A DNA stretch of 64,000 nt from an uncultured Gemmiger sp. (GTDB lineage Bacteria > Bacillota > Clostridia > Oscillospirales > Ruminococcaceae): NCBI GenBank assembly GCA_944386225.1, contig CALXAH010000009.1, positions 23,564 through 87,563 of the forward strand, in the 5' to 3' direction. Position 1 is the first letter of the stretch. Each line of letters begins with the position of its first letter. Under the pieces are notes generated by a model. That model had not been told where the DNA came from. It was given only the letters and a program-made list of their open reading frames with translations, and searched no databases. The translations under genes were made by a program, and so were the position numbers. Shown in pieces: positions 1 to 10,600 of the stretch.

Positions 1-1247
1 TCGGTTTCCACCATGCCCGGGTTGCTGATGCGGCCCATGTTGCGGATTGCCTGCTCCGGCGTCACGGCGCAGATGCCGTCGGTCGCGCTTACCACAACGC
101 CGCTTACGGCCAGATAAGCGCTCATCAGGGCGGCACTGGATGCGGTAGCCAGCTTCAGGGCACAGCCGATTTTACCTCCGTCACAGATCATGCCGGTCAG
201 GTTGGCCGACATGTTGATGATTGCAGCGCCGATTTGCGCATCGGTACCGCCCATCAGCCAGACCATCGCGGCACTGGCGGCAGCGGCAGCGCTTACACCG
301 CATCCGCAGGTGGCGCTCAGCTTGCCGGTGAACAGCTTGATGTACACATTCAGCATATGGGAGAATGCCAGTGCTTTGACGGTGGCTTCCCGGCCGGCAT
401 TCTGGTGTCGGGCCATCTCCATCACGGGGATAATGGCTGTGATACCGTGATTGCCACTGCCAGCGCTGCTCATAACCGCGTAAGGGCAGCCACTCATACG
501 TCCTTCGGCGCTGCTGGCGACCCGCAGCATGGTATTGCTGAACAGGTTGTCTCCCAGCACATCCGTGTCAAGCTGTTTCTTCAATGCGCTGGCAATTCCG
601 ATGCCCAGGGAATTCTCCAGCCCGTAGTCGGCCAGATCGCCGTTCATCTTGGCGCCGTCCATCATGAAGTCCAGCTCTTCAGCGGTGGCGCTGTCTACCA
701 GTTCCCGGATTTCCGCCACCGTCATGGTGCGTAGTTTCTCGTGCAGTTCATCTTCGCCATCCAGTGAATATTCTTTCTGCACCAGCACCTGATTGTTTGC
801 ACTGGTAAAGACAATATTGGAGTGGGTGTTTCGAATGGTGCTGATGCCCAAACCGCGGGTCGTGATGATCTCCGCGTGGGCATACAGCTGGGTTTCTTCT
901 TCGGCAATGGTTACCGATACCTGCTTTTCCTCTACCAGGCGGGTTGCTTCCTTGCTTACAATGCTGTTGATTTCTTCCAGAAGCTGCAGTCCCTTTTCGG
1001 GATTGCCCAAACAGGCGCCCAAAGCGGCAGCATATTTGAGACCGACACGGTCAAATCCGGGGATACCTACCGACATCCCGTTTTTGTACACACCCGGATT
1101 TACCTGCACTTTTACCGACACAATCTGCCCGCCGATAGCATGGTAGGCATCAGCGGCGGCCAGCGCTACACACACGGGCTCCGTGCACCCCAATGCGGGA
1201 ACGACCTCTTGCCGCAGCAGGGCCAGCATTTCCTGTTTGTTCAGCAT
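1..1247 (-). CDS. cyuA: L-cysteine desulfidase / UPF0597 (CyuA, SDH-alpha-like) family protein, 3' end cut by window
   Basis: Reading the minus strand from an ATG at 1247 gives an open frame of 415 codons that runs off the left edge, so the C-terminus is missing. It starts [20 protein letters not shown] and continues CTEP, the N-terminal signature of the UPF0597/L-cysteine desulfidase family, which is related to the alpha chain of iron-sulfur L-serine dehydratase. Gly/Ala-rich stretches such as SSAGSGNHG and the Cys-rich segment TCGCGVSA are present and could supply cluster ligands. Family members break L-cysteine into pyruvate, ammonia and sulfide through a [4Fe-4S] cluster. A sigma-54 promoter lies about 60 bp upstream and a sigma-54 activator gene is divergent. 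Specificity for cysteine rather than serine is inferred from family and context. Confidence 0.85.
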
Positions 1248-1316
1248 ATGGTTCCATCTCCTTTTTATCTTTGGCCGGTTTCCCTGTGTACCGGCAATAC
1301 GGTTCACTGTAGTACA

Positions 1317-1333
1317 AGCAAGAATTGTGCCAA
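1317..1333 (-). promoter_or_regulatory. sigma-54 (-24/-12) promoter of the cysteine desulfidase gene
   Basis: The minus strand reads TTGGCACAATTCTTGCT, matching the sigma-54 consensus TTGGCACG-N4-TTGCT with the GG and GC doublets exactly 10 bases apart. It points at the desulfidase gene, with a start site expected near 1306, about 60 bp before the ATG. Confidence 0.88.
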
Positions 1334-1414
1334 AGTTTGCAGGCAAGGTTTTTCTGTACAGGGGCGGAAACTATTCGGGCGATTAAGTGGGCTATACGGT
1401 CAAAAACAATAAAA

Positions 1415-1447
1415 ATATTGACAGAATGCATTGTTTTCTGTCAATAT
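1415..1447. repeat. Perfect 12-9-12 inverted repeat, likely activator binding site
   Basis: The arms ATATTGACAGAA (1415-1426) and TTCTGTCAATAT (1436-1447) are exact inverse complements separated by 9 bases. The repeat lies about 85-115 bp upstream of the desulfidase -24 element, a usual distance for an enhancer-type site of a sigma-54 activator, and just ahead of the activator gene. It also overlaps a candidate promoter of that gene, which would allow autoregulation. Binding by the neighbouring regulator is inferred. Confidence 0.75.
1419..1447 (+). promoter_or_regulatory. Candidate vegetative promoter of the sigma-54 activator gene
   Basis: TTGACA (1419-1424) is followed after 17 bases by CAATAT (1442-1447). 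Both elements lie inside the inverted repeat, so a bound regulator would compete with RNA polymerase here. The -10 hexamer is a weak match. Confidence 0.45.
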
Positions 1448-1494
1448 AAAAGTATAAATGGTAATTGGTTATAAATTGGTCGGGCGGTGATAAG

Positions 1495-3567
1495 GTGAAA
1501 AAGAAGGTGGCAATTGTAGCGCTGGATCCGCAGGCGGGACAGTTTTACGCCAAGCAGGTGCGGGAAATTTTTGGTACACGGATCCGGATTTCCGCCTACA
1601 GTGTCCGGGATGGTTCGGTGGAAAATCTGGAACGAGCGGATTTGTATATGGTTTCTACCGATGCATTTGAGTCGGTGGGGGATCTGCGCCAGTATATCCC
1701 CATTGACGGGGAAGTCATAGAGATCCAGGTCACCTTTTTATGGGAAGTGGTTCGCCAGCTGCAAAGCCTTCCGGCGGGAACGCGGGTGCTGTTTGTAAAT
1801 TTAAGCGACAAGATGGCGCGGGAGGCAGTAAGCCGTCTGAACCAGCTGGGGGTTAATCAGCTGGTATTCGAGATGTATTACCCTGGTTCACCTCTCCAGG
1901 TTCGTCCGGAAGACTATGACCTGGTTGTGACCCCGCATGAACAGCGATATGCGCCCCCCTGTATCAAAAAGGTGCTGGACATTGGTCAGCGGGTGCTGAC
2001 AGCTTCCACGATGACCGAGGCTGCGCTGCGGCTGGGCCTGGATGAGTTGCTGGAAACTCCGCGTTTTCAGGCGTACCAGAATGCGGTGGCAGCCAATACA
2101 TACAGCTTTGATCAGATGTTCAATCGCAGCCGCCGTCTGGAAAGCCAGTTTGAACTGCTGCTGGAAATTCTGGAAGAGGGCATGATCGGGGTGAACGAAA
2201 AAGGTGAGGTGTTCGCCTGCAATCGCAAAGCGGAGGAAATCACCGGGATCAACAGTAAACTTGCGCTCCATCAGGAGGCCGCTGCCGTGTATCCCTATCT
2301 TCCTTTCCGGGAATGCCTGAAAAGCCGCCGGCCATTGCCACCGCGTGTCATGAAGATACACGGCACCAATGTAAATGTGACCATGGCGCCGGTGCTGCGT
2401 GGCGGCGACTGTATCGGCGCCTTTGCCGGCCTGCAGCGATTCAGCGATGCGGAAAATCGTCAGAACGAACTGCGCAGCCAGCTGCTGCATAAAGGGCATC
2501 ACGCCAAGTATACCTTTGATGATGTGCTGGGAAATTCGGCGGCTATTCGCCGCAGCGTCAGCATTGCCCGGCGCATGGCGGCCAATGACCTTCCGGTTCT
2601 GCTGATCGGTGAAACCGGTACGGGCAAGGAACTGTTTGCCCATGCGGTGCACAATGCGTCGCCCCGGTCAAACGGCCCGTTTGTAGCGCTGAATTGCGCT
2701 GCCATGCCGGAAAACCTGTTGGAAAGTGAACTGTTCGGTTATGAGGATGGGGCGTTTACCGGGGCACGGCGGGGCGGTAAGCCCGGTATGTTTGAGTTTG
2801 CCCACGGCGGAACCCTCTTTCTCGATGAGGTAGAGGGTATGAGCCCGGCGCTGCAGATCAAGCTGCTGCGGGTATTACAGGAACGGGAAATCATGCGGGT
2901 GGGCGGTAACCAGATTATCAGTGTAAATGTGCGGATTGTGGCGGCTACCAACGAAGATCTGGAGCAACGGGTAGAGGAGGGCAGCTTCCGCCGGGATCTG
3001 TATTACCGGCTGAATACGCTGCCTGTGCTGATTCCGCCGCTGCGGGAACGGGACGAGGATCTGTTCCTGCTGATCGAAAATTTCCAGACCAGATTGGGGG
3101 CACGATTCCGTCTGTCGGAGGAGGTGCGGGCCCTGCTGGCCAGTCATCAGTGGCGGGGAAATATACGGGAATTGCGCAATGTGGTGGAATATTTCAGTTG
3201 TACAGGAAACGCGGTGATAGGCCCGGAGGATCTGCCGCCCACCTTCCGGTATTGTCCCTTGCGGGAAGAACGCCCAGCGCCTGTCCGTCCGGCATCGGCG
3301 CCGGAGCCGGCAGCTGTACAGGCGGGTTCGGAAGAGGCCAGGCGATTTGTACTGCACCGCCTGCTGCTGGCTGCAGAGAGCGGGGCCGGACGGGACAGTC
3401 TGCTGCGTGCCGCCCATGAGGAAGGGATCTCTCTTTCTCAACTGGAGGTGCGTCACGCGCTGGCGTCTTTAAGTCGGGAAGGACTTGTGCAGGTCAGCCG
3501 TGGACGCGGCGGTACACGGATTACCGAGCAGGGGATCCTCTTTTGCCGGAAAAATAAAATTGGTTAA
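1495..3567 (+). CDS. Sigma-54-dependent activator (PrpR-N-like, PAS, AAA+, winged-helix C-terminus), CdsR-like
   Basis: Of 690 residues, roughly 1-190 resemble the PrpR N-terminal sensory domain and 205-310 a PAS domain ([17 protein letters not shown]). The AAA+ domain carries Walker A GETGTGKE near 372, the sigma-54 contact loop GAFTGA at about 419-424 and Walker B FLDE near 443. The C-terminus (about 615-690) does not look like the usual Fis helix-turn-helix but like a winged helix ([22 protein letters not shown]). The GTG at 1495 is preferred over the upstream TTG at 1465 because GGGCGGTGAT, close to an ideal ribosome site, precedes it. Sigma-54 promoters flank the gene on both sides. In Clostridioides difficile the sigma-54 regulator CdsR controls cysteine desulfidase cdsB; orthology here is inferred from position. 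Confidence 0.9.
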
Positions 3568-3731
3568 TTGGTTGGAATACCAATTTGTGCTTGTGAGAAT
3601 GCCGGCAAGGGAATACTTTTTGGTAATAGGAGGATCAAAACGTCTGTATCAGGCTAAACTGCACAAAAGGGAAAAGAAATAGTAAGATAAAACGCTGAAA
3701 CTTTCTTGCAATTGCCGGGGGTGTCCGTTGA

Positions 3732-3748
3732 TTGGCACGGGAGTTGCT
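3732..3748 (+). promoter_or_regulatory. sigma-54 (-24/-12) promoter of the beta-lyase/symporter operon
   Basis: TTGGCACGGGAGTTGCT is an essentially perfect sigma-54 promoter, with GG at 3734-3735 and GC at 3746-3747. Transcription would start near 3759, about 60 bp before the beta-lyase ATG. A sequence resembling one half of the inverted repeat at 1415 (TTGTGAGAATGC, compared with TTGACAGAATGC) lies at 3591-3602. Confidence 0.9.
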
Positions 3749-3817
3749 ATGGAATAAGCGAAATCTTGTGAGCGCCGACAAGGACTCGCAGTAATACGGG
3801 AAGGACGGATCAGACCT

Positions 3818-4987
3818 ATGCAATACAATTTTGATCAGGTAGTGGATCGCAGCCGCAACAATGCGGCCAAATACGATGAACGGGTGAAAAAATTCGGAAC
3901 CGATCAGGTGATTCCTCTGTGGGTGGCGGATATGGACTTCAAAACCGCGCAGCCGATCATCGATGCGCTGACCGCGCGGGCACAGGAGGGGATCTGGGGC
4001 TATACCAGCCGCCCCGACAGCTACTTTGATGCGATCTGTGGCTGGCAGCAGCGGCGCAACGGCTGGACCATTGACAAAAGTCTGGTCAGCTGGAGCCTTG
4101 GTGTGGTTCCGGCGCTGAGCGCGCTGGTGCGCCTCTTTACACCGGAGGGCGGCAAGGTGCTTATCCAGACCCCGGTCTACTCCGAGTTCTATGATGTAAC
4201 CGAAGCCTGGAACCGCACCGTCGTGGAGAATCAGCTGGTGGAAAAGGACGGCCGCTGGACTATCGACTGGGAGGATTTTGAGGCGAAACTGCCGCAGGTA
4301 AGCATGTTCCTGCTGTGCAGCCCTCATAACCCGCTGGGTATTGTCTGGACACGGGAAGAGTTGATCCGCATGACGGATCTGTGCCGCAAGTACAACGTAC
4401 TGCTGGTAAGCGACGAGATCCATTCTGATCTGATCTTCCATGGTAAGAAGCACATTCCCACCGCCAGCCTGTCGCCGGAGGTGGCTTCCCAGGTGGTGAC
4501 CTGCATTTCCGGTACCAAAACCTTCAATCTGGCGGGCCTGCAGGCTTCCACCACCGTGTTCCCGAACAAGCGCATGAAGGAAGTGTACGACAAGTTCTGG
4601 GGTGCGATGGACATTCACCGGAACAATGCGTTCAGCCTGACCGCCATGCAGGCCGCCTTCAATGAGGGCGAAGAGTGGCTGGAGCAGCTGTTGGAATATC
4701 TGGACGGCAACTTCCGCTTTGTGGCGGATTACTGCGCGCAGTATATCCCGCGTATCAAGCCCACCGTGCCGGATGCCACCTATCTGATGTGGCTGGACTG
4801 CCGGGAGCTGCATATGAGCAACGAGGAACTGCGCCGGTTCATGATCGAAAAAGCCGGTCTGGGGTTGAACGAGGGCTGGAGTTTTGGACGCAGCCTGACC
4901 GGATTCATGCGGCTCAACGCTGCCTGCCCGCGCAGTGTGCTGGAGCAGGCTATGAAACAGCTGCAGGCAGCGGTGGAAGCGCTGTAA
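3818..4987 (+). CDS. patB: MalY/PatB family PLP-dependent cystathionine/cysteine beta-lyase
   Basis: This 389-residue fold-type I aminotransferase-like protein matches the PatB/MalY family over its full length. Recognisable features are the N-terminal MQYNFDQVVDRS and WVADMDF, the cofactor-site segment SPHNPLG, SDEIHSDLIF, and SGTKTFNLAG, in which Lys234 should bind pyridoxal phosphate. The family cleaves C-S bonds of cystathionine, cystine or cysteine, giving pyruvate, ammonia and a thiol or sulfide via 2-aminoacrylate. It is the first gene after a sigma-54 promoter and is followed by a symporter and RidA, which favours a catabolic cyst(e)ine role over methionine biosynthesis. Exact substrate is not readable from sequence. 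Confidence 0.88.
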   Translation: MQYNFDQVVDRSRNNAAKYDERVKKFGTDQVIPLWVADMDFKTAQPIIDALTARAQEGIWGYTSRPDSYFDAICGWQQRRNGWTIDKSLVSWSLGVVPALSALVRLFTPEGGKVLIQTPVYSEFYDVTEAWNRTVVENQLVEKDGRWTIDWEDFEAKLPQVSMFLLCSPHNPLGIVWTREELIRMTDLCRKYNVLLVSDEIHSDLIFHGKKHIPTASLSPEVASQVVTCISGTKTFNLAGLQASTTVFPNKRMKEVYDKFWGAMDIHRNNAFSLTAMQAAFNEGEEWLEQLLEYLDGNFRFVADYCAQYIPRIKPTVPDATYLMWLDCRELHMSNEELRRFMIEKAGLGLNEGWSFGRSLTGFMRLNAACPRSVLEQAMKQLQAAVEAL

Positions 4988-5077
4988 TTCAGACAAATGG
5001 TTTTGTGCAGCCTGGTGTACAGGCTGCAGATGCAGACGGAACGACAACCCAAACGAGAAGAAAAAAGGAGCAATACA

Positions 5078-6349
5078 ATGGCTAACCAGACCGTGCGCAA
5101 AAAGTCTTTCTGGGAGCAGTACAAACTCCCGATCCTGCTGTTGGGCGGCATTGCCGTCGGTTCCATCATTGGCGTAGTGTCTCCCGCTCTGGGGCAGACC
5201 CTGAAGCCTCTGGGCGAGATTTTCCTGAACCTGCTGTTCACCATTGTGGTGCCGCTGGTGTTTGTGTCCATTGCCTCGGCGGTGGGCAGTATGATGAATA
5301 TGAAGCGCCTGGGCAAAATTCTGGGCAGCACCATCCTGGTGTTCCTGGTTACCAGTGCCATTGCGGGCGTCTGTGTGCTGTGCTGGGTCAACCTGTTCAG
5401 CCCCTCGGCCGGCACCAATATCCAGATGGGCCAGGCCGAAATGGGCGAGATGCAGAGCGCATCCGAAATGCTGGTCAGCAGCCTGACCGTCAGCGACTTC
5501 CCCGAACTGCTCAGCCGTCAGAACATGCTGCCGTTGATTATCTTTGCCATTCTGTTCGGTTTCTGCGTGTCCGCCTGCGGCGGTGACGAGAGCCCGGTGG
5601 GCAAACTTCTGGCCAACCTGAACCAGGTTATCATGAAGTTTGTGGATCTGATCATGAAGATTGCTCCCATCGGCCTGGGCGCGTATTTCGCCAACCTGAT
5701 CGGCGAATTTGGCCCCGAACTGCTGGGCGATTACGGCCGCTCCATGGTGGTGTACTATCCGCTGTGCCTGCTGTATGTGCTGATCTTCTTCCCGCTGTAC
5801 GCCCTGTTTGCCGGCGGTAAAACCGGCGTGCGGAAGATGCTCAAAAATATCTTTGCCCCGGCCGTTACCGCGTTTGCCACCCAGAGTTCGGTAGCCACCC
5901 TGCCGATCAACAAGGAGGCCTGCGACAACATCGGCGTACCTAAGGACGTAAGCGACCTGGTTCTGCCGCTGGGCGCCACGGCGCACATGGACGGTTCGGT
6001 GCTGAGCTCCATTGTAAAGATTGCGTTCCTGTTCGGCGTGTTCGGGATGCCGTTTACCGGCGCGGACACCTATGCGATGGCCATTGTGGTGGCTGTAATG
6101 TCCGCTTTTGTGCTCAGCGGCGCGCCCGGCGGCGGCCTGGTAGGCGAAATGCTGATCGTCAGCCTGTTCGGATTCCCGGCGGAGGCTTTCCCGCTGATTG
6201 CCACCCTGGGCTTCCTGTTTGACCCTGCCGCCACCTGCCTGAACGCGTCCGGCGATACTCTGGCCTCCATGATGGTGGCCCGTCTGGTGGAAGGCAAAGA
6301 CTGGCTGAAGAACGCCGCTGCCCGCAAGGCTGAGGGGGAGCAAGCTTGA
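5078..6349 (+). CDS. Dicarboxylate/amino acid:cation symporter (DAACS; possible cystine importer)
   Basis: The 423-residue membrane protein has the DAACS (GltP/TcyP) architecture: hydrophobic helices from about residue 15, the serine-rich re-entrant loop TQSSVATLP, and the transport motif LPLGATAHMDGS followed by SGAPGGG. Family members couple sodium or proton influx to uptake of glutamate, aspartate, serine/threonine or cystine. The start ATG at 5078 has AAAAAGGAG eight bases upstream; an in-frame start at 4997 would add an unlikely hydrophilic leader. It lies 90 bp after the beta-lyase gene and is inferred to supply its substrate, making a TcyP-like cystine or cysteine specificity the favoured guess. 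Confidence 0.87.
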   Translation: MANQTVRKKSFWEQYKLPILLLGGIAVGSIIGVVSPALGQTLKPLGEIFLNLLFTIVVPLVFVSIASAVGSMMNMKRLGKILGSTILVFLVTSAIAGVCVLCWVNLFSPSAGTNIQMGQAEMGEMQSASEMLVSSLTVSDFPELLSRQNMLPLIIFAILFGFCVSACGGDESPVGKLLANLNQVIMKFVDLIMKIAPIGLGAYFANLIGEFGPELLGDYGRSMVVYYPLCLLYVLIFFPLYALFAGGKTGVRKMLKNIFAPAVTAFATQSSVATLPINKEACDNIGVPKDVSDLVLPLGATAHMDGSVLSSIVKIAFLFGVFGMPFTGADTYAMAIVVAVMSAFVLSGAPGGGLVGEMLIVSLFGFPAEAFPLIATLGFLFDPAATCLNASGDTLASMMVARLVEGKDWLKNAAARKAEGEQA

Positions 6350-6373
6350 TTTTGCAGCCCCTTGTGCTATAAT
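6346..6373 (+). promoter_or_regulatory. Candidate extended -10 promoter for ridA
   Basis: TGCTATAAT (hexamer 6368-6373) is an extended -10 element, with TTGATT at 6346-6351 as a weak -35 at 16 bases. It overlaps the end of the symporter gene and would let ridA be transcribed without the sigma-54 promoter. Confidence 0.55.
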
Positions 6374-6392
6374 CAAACCAGAAAATGCTGCT

Positions 6393-6420
6393 GTCCCTCC
6401 GCCTGTTGCGGCGGAGGGAC
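6393..6420 (+). other. Strong intercistronic hairpin between symporter and ridA
   Basis: GTCCCTCCGCC (6393-6403) and GGCGGAGGGAC (6410-6420) form a perfect 11-bp stem with a 6-base loop. No T-tract follows, so it is not a standard terminator; RNA processing, stabilisation or partial attenuation are possible. Confidence 0.7.
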
Positions 6421-6458
6421 GCTGCGCAGATAATCAGACAACAGGAGGATGTATCCAA

Positions 6459-6827
6459 ATGAAAATCATTGCTACCAACAATGCGCCCGGCGCGATCGGA
6501 CCGTACTCCCAGGGCTATGAGACCGGCAGTTTTGTATTCACTTCCGGCCAGCTGCCGGTAGATCCTGCCACCGGCAATATGCCCGAGGGCATTGCCGCCC
6601 AGGCGGAGTGGAGCTGCAAGAACGTGGGCGCCATTCTGGAGGCTGCCGGCTCCGGCTTTGACAAGGTTATCAAGACCACCTGCTTCCTGGCCGACATGGG
6701 CGATTTTGCCGCCTTCAACGAAGTGTACGCCAAGTTCTTTACCTCCAAGCCCGCCCGCAGCTGCGTGGCCGTGAAGGATCTGCCCAAGGGCGCTCTGTGC
6801 GAGATCGAAGCGATCGCCGAGAAGTAA
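6459..6827 (+). CDS. ridA: RidA family reactive imine/enamine deaminase
   Basis: The 122-residue protein matches RidA over its entire length, including IGPYSQG, FTSGQLPVDP and KPARSCVAV with the essential arginine at residue 100 (Arg105 in longer homologues) and the closing CEIEAIA. RidA hydrolyses 2-aminoacrylate and related imines made by PLP enzymes, protecting other PLP enzymes from damage. AGGAGG lies upstream of the ATG. Its place after a cysteine beta-lyase and near a cysteine desulfidase fits detoxification of aminoacrylate from cysteine breakdown. It also appears to have its own promoter. Confidence 0.93.
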   Translation: MKIIATNNAPGAIGPYSQGYETGSFVFTSGQLPVDPATGNMPEGIAAQAEWSCKNVGAILEAAGSGFDKVIKTTCFLADMGDFAAFNEVYAKFFTSKPARSCVAVKDLPKGALCEIEAIAEK

Positions 6828-6906: not shown

Positions 6907-6934
6907 TTGACATTTTCTCCGATCGCGGTATAAT
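6907..6934 (+). promoter_or_regulatory. Vegetative promoter of the T-box leader
   Basis: TTGACA (6907-6912) and TATAAT (6929-6934), both consensus, are separated by 16 bases. Transcription would start near 6941, immediately before the T-box leader. From the end of ridA (6828) to this promoter nothing else is evident. Confidence 0.85.
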
Positions 6935-6940
6935 GGCCTC

Positions 6941-7264
6941 ATTACCGATTTATCAAGATAAAGCGTTGATGAGGCCAAGTAAGGCGAATGACCGCTTTCA
7001 GAGAGCTGCCGGGTGGTGCAAGGCAGCAGCGTGCTTTGCCCGAAACATCCCCTCGGAGCTGCAGGCTGAACCGCCCCACTTGCCGGGCCAAGTAAGCTAC
7101 GCCGGCTGACAGCCGTTATCCTGTCGCCCATTCGGCTGCCTGGCTGCAGCCTGATGCGGACAGAGAGGTCCGGTTTTCCGGGCAATAAGAGTGGTACCGC
7201 AGAGAGCTTGTTTTACAAGCCTTTGTCTCTTGCATGCGCAGGGGGCAAAGGCCTTTTTGTTTGC
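6941..7264 (+). ncRNA. T-box riboswitch leader upstream of BASS-family transporter
   Basis: The long leader carries the hallmarks of a T-box: a stem I region with GATGAG and AAGTAAG, the conserved AGAGAGCTG...GGTGGTGCAAGGCAGC distal part, GAAACATCC...CGGAGC on the returning strand, the T-box core AAGAGTGGTACCGC (7187-7200), and a terminator. Uncharged tRNA would pair with the core and stabilise the antiterminator, so transporter expression should rise when one amino acid is scarce. The specifier codon cannot be fixed by eye; CAU (His), AUC (Ile) and ACA (Thr) all fall in the right place after GAA. Confidence 0.88.
7219..7258 (+). terminator. Regulated terminator of the T-box leader
   Basis: GCCTTTGTCTC (7219-7229) pairs with 7242-7252 (GGGGCAAAGGC region, two G-T wobbles), followed by CTTTTT. 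The antiterminator involving 7187-7200 would compete with it. Confidence 0.8.
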
Positions 7265-7341
7265 CTGCGCGGGATCAGGCTGACACCGGGCCGCGGACCC
7301 GGTTCAGGATATAGCCGTCAAGCGGCAAACTGAGAGGAGAA

Positions 7342-8340
7342 ATGAACATGGAAGCGTTGAGGAAAGTAAGCAAATTTGCGGGCAAGTACATGGCCATTAT
7401 TGTTCTGGTCGTGGCTGTTATTGCTTTCTTCGTACCCGAGAGTTTTTTGTGGGTGGGCAAGGATTATAATGTGGTCACCCGCATCGTTACGGTGAACAAC
7501 CTGCTGATGGTGGTTATGTTCGGCATGGGCCTGACCCTGAAGCTGGACGACTTTAAGGTTGTGTTCTCCCGTCCCAAGGACGTGCTGGTGGGCTGCGCCG
7601 CGCAGTTCGTCATTATGCCGCTGCTGGCGTTCCTGCTGACCAAGGTCTTTGCCCTGAGCCCGGAGCTGGCCGTGGGCGTCATTCTGGTGGGTACCTGCCC
7701 GGGCGGTACTTCCTCCAACGTGATGACCTTCCTGGCTAAAGGTGATGTGGCCCTGAGCGTAGGCATGACCGCCTGCTCCACCATTCTGGCTCCGTTCCTG
7801 ACCCCGGCCCTGACCTACCTGTATGCCCATGAGACCGTTACCGTCAACATGATGGATATGTTCATGAGCATCGTAAAGATTGTGATCATCCCCATTGCCC
7901 TGGGCTTTGTCATCAACAAACTGTTTGGCAAGTTTACCCAGGCCGTCGTGGAGATTCTGCCGCTGATCTCGGTGGTGGCGATCGTGACCATCGTGGGCGC
8001 TGTGGTGGCCCCCAATGCCGAAAAGCTGTTTGCCAACGGCATCCTGATCCTGACCGTCGTGATCCTGCACAACCTGCTGGGCTATGCCCTGGGCTATGGC
8101 GTGGGCAAGCTGCTGAAGATGAGCGACCCCAAGTGCAACGCCGTATCCATCGAAGTGGGCATGCAGAACAGCGGTCTGGCTACCAGCCTGGCCGGCACCG
8201 TCTTCCCGGACCTGGCTCTGGCCACTGTGCCCGGCGCCCTGTTCAGCGTATGGCATAACATCTCCGGCTCCATCGTGGCCAACATCATGGCCGCTGCCGC
8301 GGAGAAAAAGGCCGCCAAAGCCGCTGCCGAAAGCAAATAA
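7342..8340 (+). CDS. Bile acid:sodium symporter (BASS) family transporter
   Basis: The 332-residue protein has nine to ten predicted membrane helices and the BASS signatures GTCPGGTSSNVMTFLAKGD and, near residue 270, VGMQNSGLA. Relatives include PanS/YocS-type carriers for ketopantoate and other 2-oxo acids as well as bile acid carriers. GAGAGGAG precedes the ATG at 7342. The T-box leader ties expression to starvation for an amino acid, so a 2-oxo acid or amino-acid precursor is a more likely substrate than bile acid. The C-terminus ends in a Lys/Ala-rich tail. A hairpin terminator follows at once. Confidence 0.85.
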   Translation: MNMEALRKVSKFAGKYMAIIVLVVAVIAFFVPESFLWVGKDYNVVTRIVTVNNLLMVVMFGMGLTLKLDDFKVVFSRPKDVLVGCAAQFVIMPLLAFLLTKVFALSPELAVGVILVGTCPGGTSSNVMTFLAKGDVALSVGMTACSTILAPFLTPALTYLYAHETVTVNMMDMFMSIVKIVIIPIALGFVINKLFGKFTQAVVEILPLISVVAIVTIVGAVVAPNAEKLFANGILILTVVILHNLLGYALGYGVGKLLKMSDPKCNAVSIEVGMQNSGLATSLAGTVFPDLALATVPGALFSVWHNISGSIVANIMAAAAEKKAAKAAAESK

Positions 8341-8390: not shown

Positions 8391-10223
8391 TTACAGTGTT
8401 CCGACAGGGCCAATCTGCAGGCTGCCGGCAATCAGATTCAGAATATCCTCGTCGGGTACCTGATCCGGTTCAAAGCGGAGCGCGATGTAGACCTCCAGTT
8501 CCCGGTTGAAGCAGAGCAGACCTTTGGTTTCGAGTTCCGGTACGGCTGCCATGTTTTCCTCCGGATGGGCTTCTATATAGGCACTGTCCTTATAAATAAC
8601 GTCCGCGATGCCGCTTTCGCCCTGGTCATACCGGCTTACCGCCGTGTACGGGTTCCAGATATCAACGCTGGAAAGCCGCAGTTCCGTGTAAACAGTTTTA
8701 TACTCATCCTCCGGCGGCACGGGTTCCTCGGTATAGGGAGTGTATCGGCCGTATTTTAAGGTGCCTGCCAGCACATCCCCGTTATAAATCTCCATGGGGG
8801 AGAGCAGGCTGGCGAAGGAAACGGCGGGCCTATTGGGCAGATTGTATATTCCTTCCTCCAGTGGGGAGCGGATCTCCCATCCGTCGGGCAGTACCAGCCG
8901 CAGATCGAAAGCCGAATCCTCCGTTTCGCTGCCGAAGGTTACATAGTAGGTTCCGAAAGCCGCCGCCGGTTCAATTCCGGCCTTGGCCAGCAGATCCACC
9001 GTCAGGCTTGGATCATCGTCACCGGGCAGATACGCGTCCATCTGCAGGCTGCGATAGGTTGCCTCGCCCAGGTCAATGATATAGGTCTGGCCGGCCTGCC
9101 AGCTGCGATCTGCGTTTTCCTGTTCCAGAAAATGTATGCTCATGCTGTCTGCGCCCATAGAGGCTTCGCCATATACCAGAATGTTCCAGTCGCTGGCGGG
9201 CGTGTAGCTTTCCGGCAGGGTAAAGGTAATGGCGGTTCCGTCAAAGGCAATGCTGTTTTCCAGCTCATCCAGGGCCTGCTGCGGATCGGTTTTTCTGCCG
9301 GTAAAGGTGCATCCGATCAGCACTACCGCGCAGACCGCCAGGGCCGCCGCTGCCCAGACCCGTGTGCGGCTGCCGGAAACAATCAGGGCGATGCGCCGCT
9401 GCAGGCTGTTCCGGCCGGCGCTCATGCTGGTGGCGGTACAGCCCGGGCAGACCGGCCCGCGCATTCGCCGTACTACCGATACCAGTGTGTGCCCGTAGGC
9501 GATCCGTTCCGGTTTGCCCAGTACCCGGACAGCCCGCTCGTCACAGGCGCGTTCGCAGTCCTCCCGGGAAACCGCAGCAGCGGTCCACACCAGCGGGTCA
9601 AACCAGTACAAACACAGGCATACCGCCCGCACCAGTGCCCAGATATGGTCTTTCTGTTTCCAGTGGCATTCTTCGTGTACCAGAATGTGCCGCAGCATGG
9701 CGGGATCATCGGTAACCTCTGGCGGGACATATACCGCCGGATGCAGCAGCCCGAACAAACAGGGGGAGCCGAGCCCGCTGACGCGGTATACCGGCAATGG
9801 ACAAGCGGCAGCCATCGGGCGGCGCATTGCGCGCAGCTGGCGGGCAAACCGAAGATTCACAAAAAGAAACCATGCCGCCGCGGCCAGAACGCCAATCAGC
9901 CAGAACACCATCAGAGCGGGAAACTCCATGGAGGCGGCTGTGTCGGTACCGGCTGTCACAGCTCCGGGAGTTGCTGTGCCGCCGGCCTGCACCCGGACGG
10001 TCTGCCCGGTGATGACGGCTTCCACGCGGCGGGTGCCGGGCAGATTCATCACGCTGCTGCCCGCAGGCAGGGAGAAAGGGAGCAGCAACCGAAATACAAC
10101 CAATCCCCACAGGCTGTATTGAAGGCGGCGGCTGATCCGGCCGCGCAGCAGCAGCCGAAGCACCAGCAGAGCCAGAATCAACACTGAGGAGGTGACAAGA
10201 AGTTCCGGAACCGAAGCAATCAT
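8391..10223 (-). CDS. BlaR1/MecR1-like M56 membrane metallopeptidase with unfamiliar extracytoplasmic domain
   Basis: The 610-residue protein has N-terminal membrane helices (about 5-30, 35-55, 100-125), the zinc motif HEECH within HILVHEECHWKQ, an arginine-rich cytoplasmic loop, and a further membrane segment (about 293-310, AVCAVVLIGC). This is the M56 BlaR1/MecR1 layout. The C-terminal 290 residues do not show the penicillin-binding SxxK/SxN/KTG pattern of BlaR1 and I do not recognise them; they are acidic and aromatic-rich and probably face outside. Its ATG overlaps the end of the BlaI gene by 4 bp, so the two are translationally coupled. The protease should inactivate BlaI on sensing a signal. 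Confidence 0.85.
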   Translation of the reverse strand: MIASVPELLVTSSVLILALLVLRLLLRGRISRRLQYSLWGLVVFRLLLPFSLPAGSSVMNLPGTRRVEAVITGQTVRVQAGGTATPGAVTAGTDTAASMEFPALMVFWLIGVLAAAAWFLFVNLRFARQLRAMRRPMAAACPLPVYRVSGLGSPCLFGLLHPAVYVPPEVTDDPAMLRHILVHEECHWKQKDHIWALVRAVCLCLYWFDPLVWTAAAVSREDCERACDERAVRVLGKPERIAYGHTLVSVVRRMRGPVCPGCTATSMSAGRNSLQRRIALIVSGSRTRVWAAAALAVCAVVLIGCTFTGRKTDPQQALDELENSIAFDGTAITFTLPESYTPASDWNILVYGEASMGADSMSIHFLEQENADRSWQAGQTYIIDLGEATYRSLQMDAYLPGDDDPSLTVDLLAKAGIEPAAAFGTYYVTFGSETEDSAFDLRLVLPDGWEIRSPLEEGIYNLPNRPAVSFASLLSPMEIYNGDVLAGTLKYGRYTPYTEEPVPPEDEYKTVYTELRLSSVDIWNPYTAVSRYDQGESGIADVIYKDSAYIEAHPEENMAAVPELETKGLLCFNRELEVYIALRFEPDQVPDEDILNLIAGSLQIGPVGTL

Positions 10224-10600
10224 GGCTGTTTCTCCTCCGCTTTTTTCAACAGGGCGTCCAGCGCGGCCAGATCCTCATCAGACAGGCGGGTGTCGCCCAC
10301 CAGTGTATTTACCATCAGTTTCAGGCTGCCGCCGTACAGGCGGGAAAGAAAACTGCGGGTTTCCTGCCGCTGGGTATCGGCCCGGTCCAGAATGGGGTAG
10401 AACTGTTTGGCGCGTTCGCCTTCTTCATGCCGGACGGCCCCCTTGGCCTCCAGCCGGGACAACATGGTGATTACCGTGTGTTTGCTCCAGCCGGTATCCT
10501 CCCGCAGCCGTTCCACCAGTTGGGTAATGGTGCTGGGAGAGTGATCCCAAAGCGCGTTCATCAACAGCCATTCGCTGTCGGACAATCGGATTACGTCCAT
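10220..10600 (-). CDS. blaI: BlaI/MecI/CopY family transcriptional repressor
   Basis: The 126-residue protein shows the family winged helix: LSDSEWLLMNALWDHSPSTI, then WSKHTVITMLSRLEAKGAV with the recognition helix, and a C-terminal dimerisation part. Such repressors bind palindromic operators and are cleaved after activation of an M56 sensor. The sensor gene overlaps its 3' end. GGAGG lies upstream of the ATG at 10600. Two copies of one 18-bp sequence flank its promoter, so autorepression is likely. No beta-lactamase is nearby. Confidence 0.93.
   Translation of the reverse strand: MDVIRLSDSEWLLMNALWDHSPSTITQLVERLREDTGWSKHTVITMLSRLEAKGAVRHEEGERAKQFYPILDRADTQRQETRSFLSRLYGGSLKLMVNTLVGDTRLSDEDLAALDALLKKAEEKQP

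Follow-up and report, generated by a model that had tools for sequence, protein, structure and literature searches.

A predicted two-promoter sigma-54 regulon for the breakdown of cysteine and related C-S compounds in an uncultured Gemmiger species

Which compounds are broken down by the products of a gene cluster arranged around a single sigma-54 activator gene in an uncultured Gemmiger sp., and how might this cluster be switched on? The question is raised by a stretch of 64,000 nucleotides (GenBank assembly GCA_944386225.1, contig CALXAH010000009.1), here termed the window, whose numbering is used for all positions given without a contig label and which belongs to a genome of 3.38 Mb with an assumed G+C content of 0.57. 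In the window, a cdsB-type gene of the L-cysteine desulfidase family on the minus strand is divergent from the activator gene, which is followed on the plus strand by a patB gene for a C-S lyase, an SDF-family symporter gene and ridA (Table 1). The cluster is likely to represent a sigma-54 regulon with two promoters serving the breakdown of cysteine and related C-S compounds. A sigma-54 regulon for C-S compounds is very probably real and cysteine is most likely the compound concerned, with cysteine, as we infer, being both inducer and substrate.

Sigma-54 promoters and their activator

On either side of the activator gene, a near-perfect -24/-12 box had been proposed in the original prediction, and both were confirmed as exact 17-mers (TTGGCACN5TTGCT), located about 86 bases upstream of the cdsB and patB start codons, respectively. 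The corresponding 16-mer TGGCACN5TTGCW occurs at exactly three sites of the genome, two of them being the boxes flanking the activator and the third (C29:30577) lying antisense within a dCMP-deaminase-like reading frame and having A as its last letter; about 0.36 exact 12-letter matches per genome are expected by chance at the given G+C content. The rpoN gene, on which the original prediction depended, is present in one copy (C34:8141). Moreover, six matches to PF00158 were found in the genome, only two of them being strong, i.e., the activator of the window and a second activator on contig C34. Among 295 genomes of the order, rpoN was found in 18 and the activator in two, both of which are among those 18. 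The combination of rpoN, an AAA+ domain with the GAFTGA motif and -24/-12 boxes is what is expected of a sigma-54 regulon; the promoters and the AAA+ motor are evident from the sequence and their use is predicted.

The adjacency of the genes and both boxes are likewise conserved in related genomes, a check that had been suggested with the original prediction. The activator scan covered the best 80 of 299 relatives, of which the 22 closest loci (L012-L033, 55-94% identity) were counted. These mostly belong to Oscillospirales, in addition to Tissierellales (L030), Clostridiales bacterium 1_7_47_FAA (L031) and Lacrimispora (L032), with Gemmiger sp. An120 being the nearest named relative (94%). 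A divergent, adjacent cdsB was found in 20 of the 22 loci, patB directly after the activator gene in all 22 and the symporter gene directly next in 19, these counts not being independent because the loci are related. The symporter copy of L020 is just 44% alike; the exceptions are L026, where the gene is 993 bases away, as well as L024 and L033, where only a 43% relative is located at a distance of 2.6-3.4 kb. With the window included, the best box score (out of 12 letters) is 10-12 in 21 of 21 sequences on the cdsB side and 9-12 in 23 of 23 on the patB side, with at least 10 in 20 of the latter. The box search required GG and GC at the correct spacing in real and shuffled sequence alike. Dinucleotide shuffles gave a score of at least 10 in 26 and a score of at least 9 in 113 of 4200 cases for the cdsB side, and in 38 and 186 of 4600 cases, respectively, for the patB side, while the best score on the opposite strands of the same promoter DNA never exceeded 7. 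When 250 genomes evenly sampled from the family of genome G139 were searched, four contained a relative of the N-terminal half of the activator. G139 itself (L093) features cdsB, the start of patB and the cdsB box. In L153, which is located outside the 22 loci, cdsB and the start of patB are likewise present, here together with both boxes. A 44% symporter relative adjoins the activator in L154 and none of the cluster genes was found in L155, with no cdsB or patB match within 4 kb in either of them.

The activator consists of an N-terminal part (residues ~1-210), a PAS domain (218-267; PF00989, 25.5 bits vs. a cut-off of 22.6), an AAA+ domain (345-511) with the GAFTGA motif and a winged-helix-like C-terminus (~620-690). 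A profile of this C-terminus matched 2obp among solved structures (E-value 1.5e-4) and, more weakly, RRF2, FadR, NsrR and many ribosomal S19e proteins, all of which we take to be winged-helix proteins; a Fis-type helix-turn-helix or HTH_8 domain was not matched in Pfam. The first 210 residues have no described match in Pfam or among solved structures. Candidates considered for this part were two weak methyltransferase matches, the only Pfam hits at E-values up to 1, as well as designed TIM barrels (~2e-4, no passing stretch) and three matches at 0.37-0.49 in the comparison of its profile with solved structures, which were judged meaningless.

The original prediction had transferred the logic of CdsR of Clostridioides difficile to this locus, which was not supported, as the activator belongs to a different family. 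C. difficile CdsR aligns over the AAA+ domain alone (residues 338-591 of the window activator), which lacks a Fis end, and an identification as CdsR was rejected. Instead, 34% identity over residues 5-686 was found to the C. difficile activator of locus L145, which is apparently CD2732, its box being one base different and the strain another one. The full-length homology and the adjacent malY/patB gene behind a -24/-12 box place the activator probably in the predicted XcyR group.

Repeats of the type ATTGGT/ACCAAT near both promoters are candidate sites for this activator. The first site lies 132-150 bp upstream of the -24 box of cdsB and 14 bp before the activator start codon, and the pattern AATTGGTN{2,12}AATTGGT occurs only there in the genome (1463-1480); the second one lies ~150-176 bp upstream of the -24 box of patB and overlaps the activator stop codon. 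Before the activator start, 77 GGT[TC] boxes were counted in 21 regions vs. 32.3 expected (other strand 21 vs. 21.2), and 96 reverse, ACC-oriented boxes were counted after the activator stop in 23 regions vs. 41.7 expected (other strand 41 vs. 32.2), numbers which describe the set and do not constitute a test, since the box was chosen after inspecting the same regions. The enriched orientation is identical relative to the cdsB and patB promoters. A spacing of 9 bp is prominent in the set, with 13 and 16 pairs compared with a mean of no more than 0.4 in shuffles for any spacing, and the C. difficile homologue carries two ACC boxes 9 bp apart directly after the stop codon (by eye). For the activator gene itself, many relatives show TTGACA with an A/T-rich hexamer on inspection by eye; the putative promoter in the window was not flagged by the promoter scan. 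As the first site is located between this putative promoter and the start codon, the bound activator may limit its own synthesis.

These repeats also bear on the possibility that cdsB is switched on by the second strong activator, a CdsR/DioR-type protein encoded on C34, and that the divergent activator controls patB only. Such a division of labor would be suggested by the whole-length match of the C34 activator to C. difficile CdsR (36%) and to the C. difficile activator of L108 (38%). It is nevertheless improbable, as the divergent activator is flanked on either side by enriched repeats, and the C34 activator adjoins a PALP-family gene with a one-mismatch box, like the DioR regulon described by Nie et al. 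(2019; PMC6615313, Table 1). The C34 activator is read as DioR-like. Its surroundings comprise rpoN, an amidohydrolase gene and the PALP-family gene, which resembles diaminopropionate ammonia-lyase (by eye) and is preceded by the -24/-12 box TGGCATACAGATTGCT.

Enzymes, symporter and proposed mechanism

The solved relatives found for the cdsB protein are solely L-cysteine desulfidases (9fsl/9fyi, E-value 9.7e-32; 9he0/9he2), and it remains far under the serine-dehydratase model TIGR00718 (24 vs. 243 bits). Its cysteines 21, 314, 355 and 362 are invariant in 35 alignment rows (32 different), which agrees with the mention of four conserved cysteines of CdsB in the available text of PMC5767170. 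In a tree, the CdsB proteins of the cluster and that of C. difficile form one group (100/99), with long branches. Homology and the four cysteines assign the protein to the CdsB/CyuA family, and activity on cysteine is predicted. Some cdsB homologue is present in 71 of the 295 genomes of the order; beyond the cdsB of the cluster, the listed homologues are 28-38% alike. The product of patB is a C-S lyase of the PatB type according to TIGR04350 (C_S_lyase_PatB, 479 bits vs. a cut-off of 340), with 4dgt and 6qp3 as solved relatives.

In the symporter, the position of Arg397 of GltPh is occupied by alanine according to an alignment to solved aspartate/glutamate transporters, and the same holds for all 21 symporters that are readable in the 22 loci, including the 43-44% relatives in L020, L024 and L033. 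The GltPh variant R397C transports serine, alanine and cysteine, as described in the available text of PMC5750217. The SDF family and the absence of the arginine responsible for binding acidic side chains are typical of neutral amino-acid symporters of the DAACS type, and the protein is predicted to import neutral amino acids, which would be compatible with cysteine. An assignment as a cystine symporter of the TcyP type was tried and not supported, with 29% identity to Escherichia coli TcyP over 308 aligned columns and a difference at the arginine. At the level of the sequence, the original prediction is supported as regards two divergent sigma-54 units around one activator that encode a protein of the CdsB family, a C-S lyase of the PatB family and a plausible importer.

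Taken together, the following course of events can be proposed. The activator gene would be transcribed from an ordinary promoter, and the winged-helix-like end of its product would bind the ATTGGT repeats on either side of the gene, while the N-terminal and PAS domains may act as sensors of a small molecule, which is probably cysteine, cystine or a product thereof. The AAA+ motor would then open the sigma-54 polymerase at both promoters, that of cdsB on the minus strand and that of patB on the plus strand. Judging from its residues, the symporter would import a neutral amino acid such as cysteine, from which the iron-sulfur enzyme CdsB and the pyridoxal phosphate-dependent PatB would, by the known chemistry of their families, release sulfide, ammonia and, via 2-aminoacrylate, pyruvate. 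RidA would speed up the hydrolysis of 2-aminoacrylate, here perhaps with an expression of its own.

Known systems and the choice between substrates

Among the closest known systems is the CD2732/CD2733-CD2734.1 locus of C. difficile (apparently L145), which shares with the cluster the full-length homology of the activator and, behind it, a -24/-12 box with the gene for a PatB/MalY enzyme (46%). In contrast to the cluster, no cdsB, SDF symporter or ridA match is located within 10 kb, the next genes encoding a transporter of 480 amino acids and a protein of 89 amino acids. In Table 4 of PMC7438776, a -24/-12 promoter is given for CD2733-CD2734.1 (PLP-dependent transferase, Na+/H+ antiporter, membrane protein), with CD2732 as the adjacent regulator, an entry that agrees with L145; this promoter is a prediction, as the row contains neither an expression change nor a mapped start. 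CD2733 is also named in a paper on the metabolic network of C. difficile (PMC4207893), while further mentions of CD2732 (an immunology preprint) and of XcyR (two papers, judging from their titles) are unrelated. In Table 1 of Nie et al. (2019; PMC6615313), XcyR is listed with malY-pepT-hyp under "peptide degradation", its genera being Clostridioides, Clostridium, Flavonifractor, Geosporobacter and Lachnoclostridium. The patB half of the regulon was thus probably predicted before; the table does not mention cdsB, a symporter or ridA under XcyR. In F. plautii, three patB homologues were found, and only that of this cluster has an activator match at a distance of a few kb.

Three further systems resemble parts of the cluster. 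The CdsR-sigma-54-cdsB system of C. difficile likewise combines a sigma-54 activator with an adjacent CdsB-family gene that has a -24/-12 promoter, and cdsB is induced there by cysteine via sigma-54 and CdsR (PMC5767170, available text). Unlike the activator of the window, CdsR has 591 amino acids and a Fis-type end (PMC5767170), and its regulon consists of cdsB alone in Table 1 of PMC6615313. In E. coli, cyuP-cyuA beside tdcG-tdcF combine a cysteine importer and a desulfidase with a nearby serine deaminase and a putative enamine/imine deaminase (by annotation), while neither a sigma-54 activator nor patB is annotated in that 10-kb stretch. The activators of the GamR type (C. difficile CD0167 and CD3094 as named in PMC7438776, available text) have a similar length and domain order and are ~31-34% alike over most of their length. 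Their loci feature an adjacent cdsB in 5 of 16 cases; in contrast to the cluster, a gamma-glutamyl-hydrolase-like gene (by eye) is next in 13 of 16, usually together with an amino-acid permease. The parts are known and what is new, as far as the literature searched is concerned, is their arrangement: cdsB, patB and a symporter for neutral amino acids were found grouped around a single activator neither in an incomplete literature collection nor in the available text of PMC12316311, PMC12069270 and PMC9130780. The same collection contained no work joining cysteine desulfidase with RidA, nor with gut, Flavonifractor and hydrogen sulfide.

Several observations weigh against a cysteine-degrading sigma-54 regulon, apart from the relatedness of the 22 loci and the choice of the repeat box after inspection. 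At up to one mismatch, the genome contains 86 box sites vs. 72 for the reversed control pattern, for which reason weak boxes are of little significance in this genome, and a scan for sigma-70-type promoters also scores the cdsB box with 9 of 12 (1333-1306, minus strand). Both findings would suit the explanation that the boxes occur by chance and the genes are mere neighbors lacking sigma-54 control. This is, nevertheless, barely credible in view of the exactness of the boxes, their place beside the activator, their conservation and the controls with shuffles and opposite strands. As for other weak sites, two one-mismatch TGGCAT sites were found, one antisense within a long reading frame on C73 and one close to a contig end on C1. 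Regarding the activator sites, the second candidate is of mixed orientation, with two AATTGGT and one ACCAATT, unlike most relatives. The window contains no [AG]ACC box upstream of the patB promoter, and the 9-bp spacing is absent in it (11 bp upstream, 8 bp downstream), just as L153 has three boxes on each side and no 9-bp pairs. Moreover, no effect of SigL on C. difficile cdsB is reported for the medium used in PMC7438776 (available text), and E. coli TcyP, an annotated cystine carrier of the same superfamily, retains the arginine that is lost here.

Further points of this kind concern the substrate. Beside the activator, cdsB is absent in two of the 22 loci, and a second activator-patB pair of Clostridiales bacterium 1_7_47_FAA (L147) precedes a different transporter gene as well as a peptidase-like gene (by eye), with no cdsB within 10 kb. 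Cysteine is therefore not the sole possible theme. The regulon might serve other C-S substrates, e.g., cystathionine, S-conjugates or peptide-derived cysteine derivatives, one of them being the inducer and cysteine a mere intermediate, a reading which we consider rather unlikely. Besides the gene content of L147, the broad substrate range of PatB enzymes speaks for it. The label given to XcyR, under which Flavonifractor is included, and the antiporter name of the transporter that follows the PatB homologue of C. difficile (both described above) point in the same direction. On the other side, a gene of a family acting on L-cysteine, cdsB, has its own -24/-12 box in all 21 sequences, and the site of the symporter suits a small neutral amino acid, both of which argue for cysteine.

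RidA, neighboring genes and the wider activator family

That ridA encodes a genuine RidA protein, as originally predicted, was confirmed by TIGR00004 (161 bits vs. a cut-off of 106) and by the retained arginine of the PARSC motif in an alignment with RidA-family structures. The gene adjoins that for the symporter in 15 of the 22 loci and is missing in L019, L024, L028 (contig ends), L030, L031, L032 and L033. The further claim, a detoxification built into the sigma-54 unit, was weakened and is unproven, because ridA may have its own sigma-A promoter in this genome. The single promoter match is itself weak evidence, as the scan gives five promoter-like sites in the region vs. 3.2 (standard deviation 1.8) in shuffles. 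By a looser search, made without a shuffle control, a similar element was found in eight of the 15 relatives with ridA behind the symporter gene (L012, L013, L014, L018, L022, L023, L026, L029) and none in the other seven. A clustering of RidA genes with cystathionine beta-lyase and cysteine enzymes was already reported in 2015 (PMC4433059, available text). Between the symporter gene and ridA, a hairpin (6393-6420) located behind the sigma-A-like promoter and with a G+C-rich stem of 11 bp and no T run is visible by eye, with a similar fold in L012.

Table 1. Positions and supporting evidence of the cluster features in the window
Feature	Position	Strand	Evidence
cdsB-type gene (L-cysteine desulfidase family, UPF0597/CyuA), 430 aa in full	1..1247	-	PF03313, 172 bits
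Predicted sigma-54 promoter (-24/-12) of cdsB, TTGGCACAATTCTTGCT	1317..1333	-	exact match
Putative sigma-A promoter of the activator gene, TTGACA + CAATAT, spacer 18	1418..1447	+	by eye
Candidate upstream activating sequence 1, AATTGGTTATAAATTGGT	1463..1480	none	repeat pattern, unique in genome
Sigma-54 activator, probably XcyR/CD2732-type, 690 aa	1495..3567	+	PF00158, 240 bits; PF00989, 25.5 bits; GAFTGA
Candidate upstream activating sequence 2, AATTGGTTAATTGGTTGGAATACCAATT	3558..3585	none	by eye
Predicted sigma-54 promoter (-24/-12) of patB, TTGGCACGGGAGTTGCT	3732..3748	+	exact match
patB/malY-type PLP-dependent C-S lyase gene, 389 aa	3818..4987	+	TIGR04350
SDF (DAACS) symporter gene, 423 aa	5078..6349	+	PF00375, 344 bits
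Sigma-A-like promoter before ridA, TTGATT-16-TATAAT, TG before -10	6346..6373	+	promoter scan, 10/12
ridA, enamine/imine deaminase family, 122 aa	6459..6827	+	TIGR00004, PF01042

The cdsB-type gene runs from 1247 down to C9:23518, its final 46 bases being located beyond the window edge. Downstream of ridA, positions 6907-8340 look like a separate unit, which comprises a perfect sigma-A promoter (TTGACA-16-TATAAT, promoter scan), a T-box leader (RF00230, 6957-7233) and a gene for a transporter of the bile-acid:sodium-symporter family, whose closest NCBIfam model is PanS with a score under the cut-off. By eye, the specifier codon of the T-box leader could be AUC (isoleucine), presuming the usual T-box layout. 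On the minus strand (8391-10600), a frame for a BlaR1/MecR1-like membrane peptidase (610 amino acids) adjoins that for a small BlaI/CopY-like regulator (126 amino acids), both judged by eye from their translations.

Some GamR-like loci (L043, L044, L045, L046 and L066) combine a gamma-glutamyl-hydrolase-like gene and an amino-acid permease gene (by eye) with a cdsB homologue, hinting at a breakdown of gamma-glutamyl-cysteine compounds. Tentatively, and with some doubt on our side, the XcyR/GamR-like activator family of several clostridial lineages, now labelled "peptide degradation" or "amino acid metabolism" and composed in this view of an undescribed N-terminal sensor, PAS, the sigma-54 motor and a winged helix, with ATTGGT repeats as its sites, might be regarded as a sensor of cysteine or a cysteine-derived metabolite which has gathered cdsB, patB or gamma-glutamyl hydrolase genes depending on the lineage, and which controls the release of sulfide by two unrelated lyases in the relatives from Gemmiger, Fournierella and Flavonifractor. 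These three genera are known from guts. If this is true, the production of sulfide from cysteine in several genera known from guts would be subject to one inducible switch, and an activator group known only by prediction would obtain a testable function. Moreover, two promoters, one activator and few sites would provide a ready system in which the ligand of an undescribed sensor domain could be identified.

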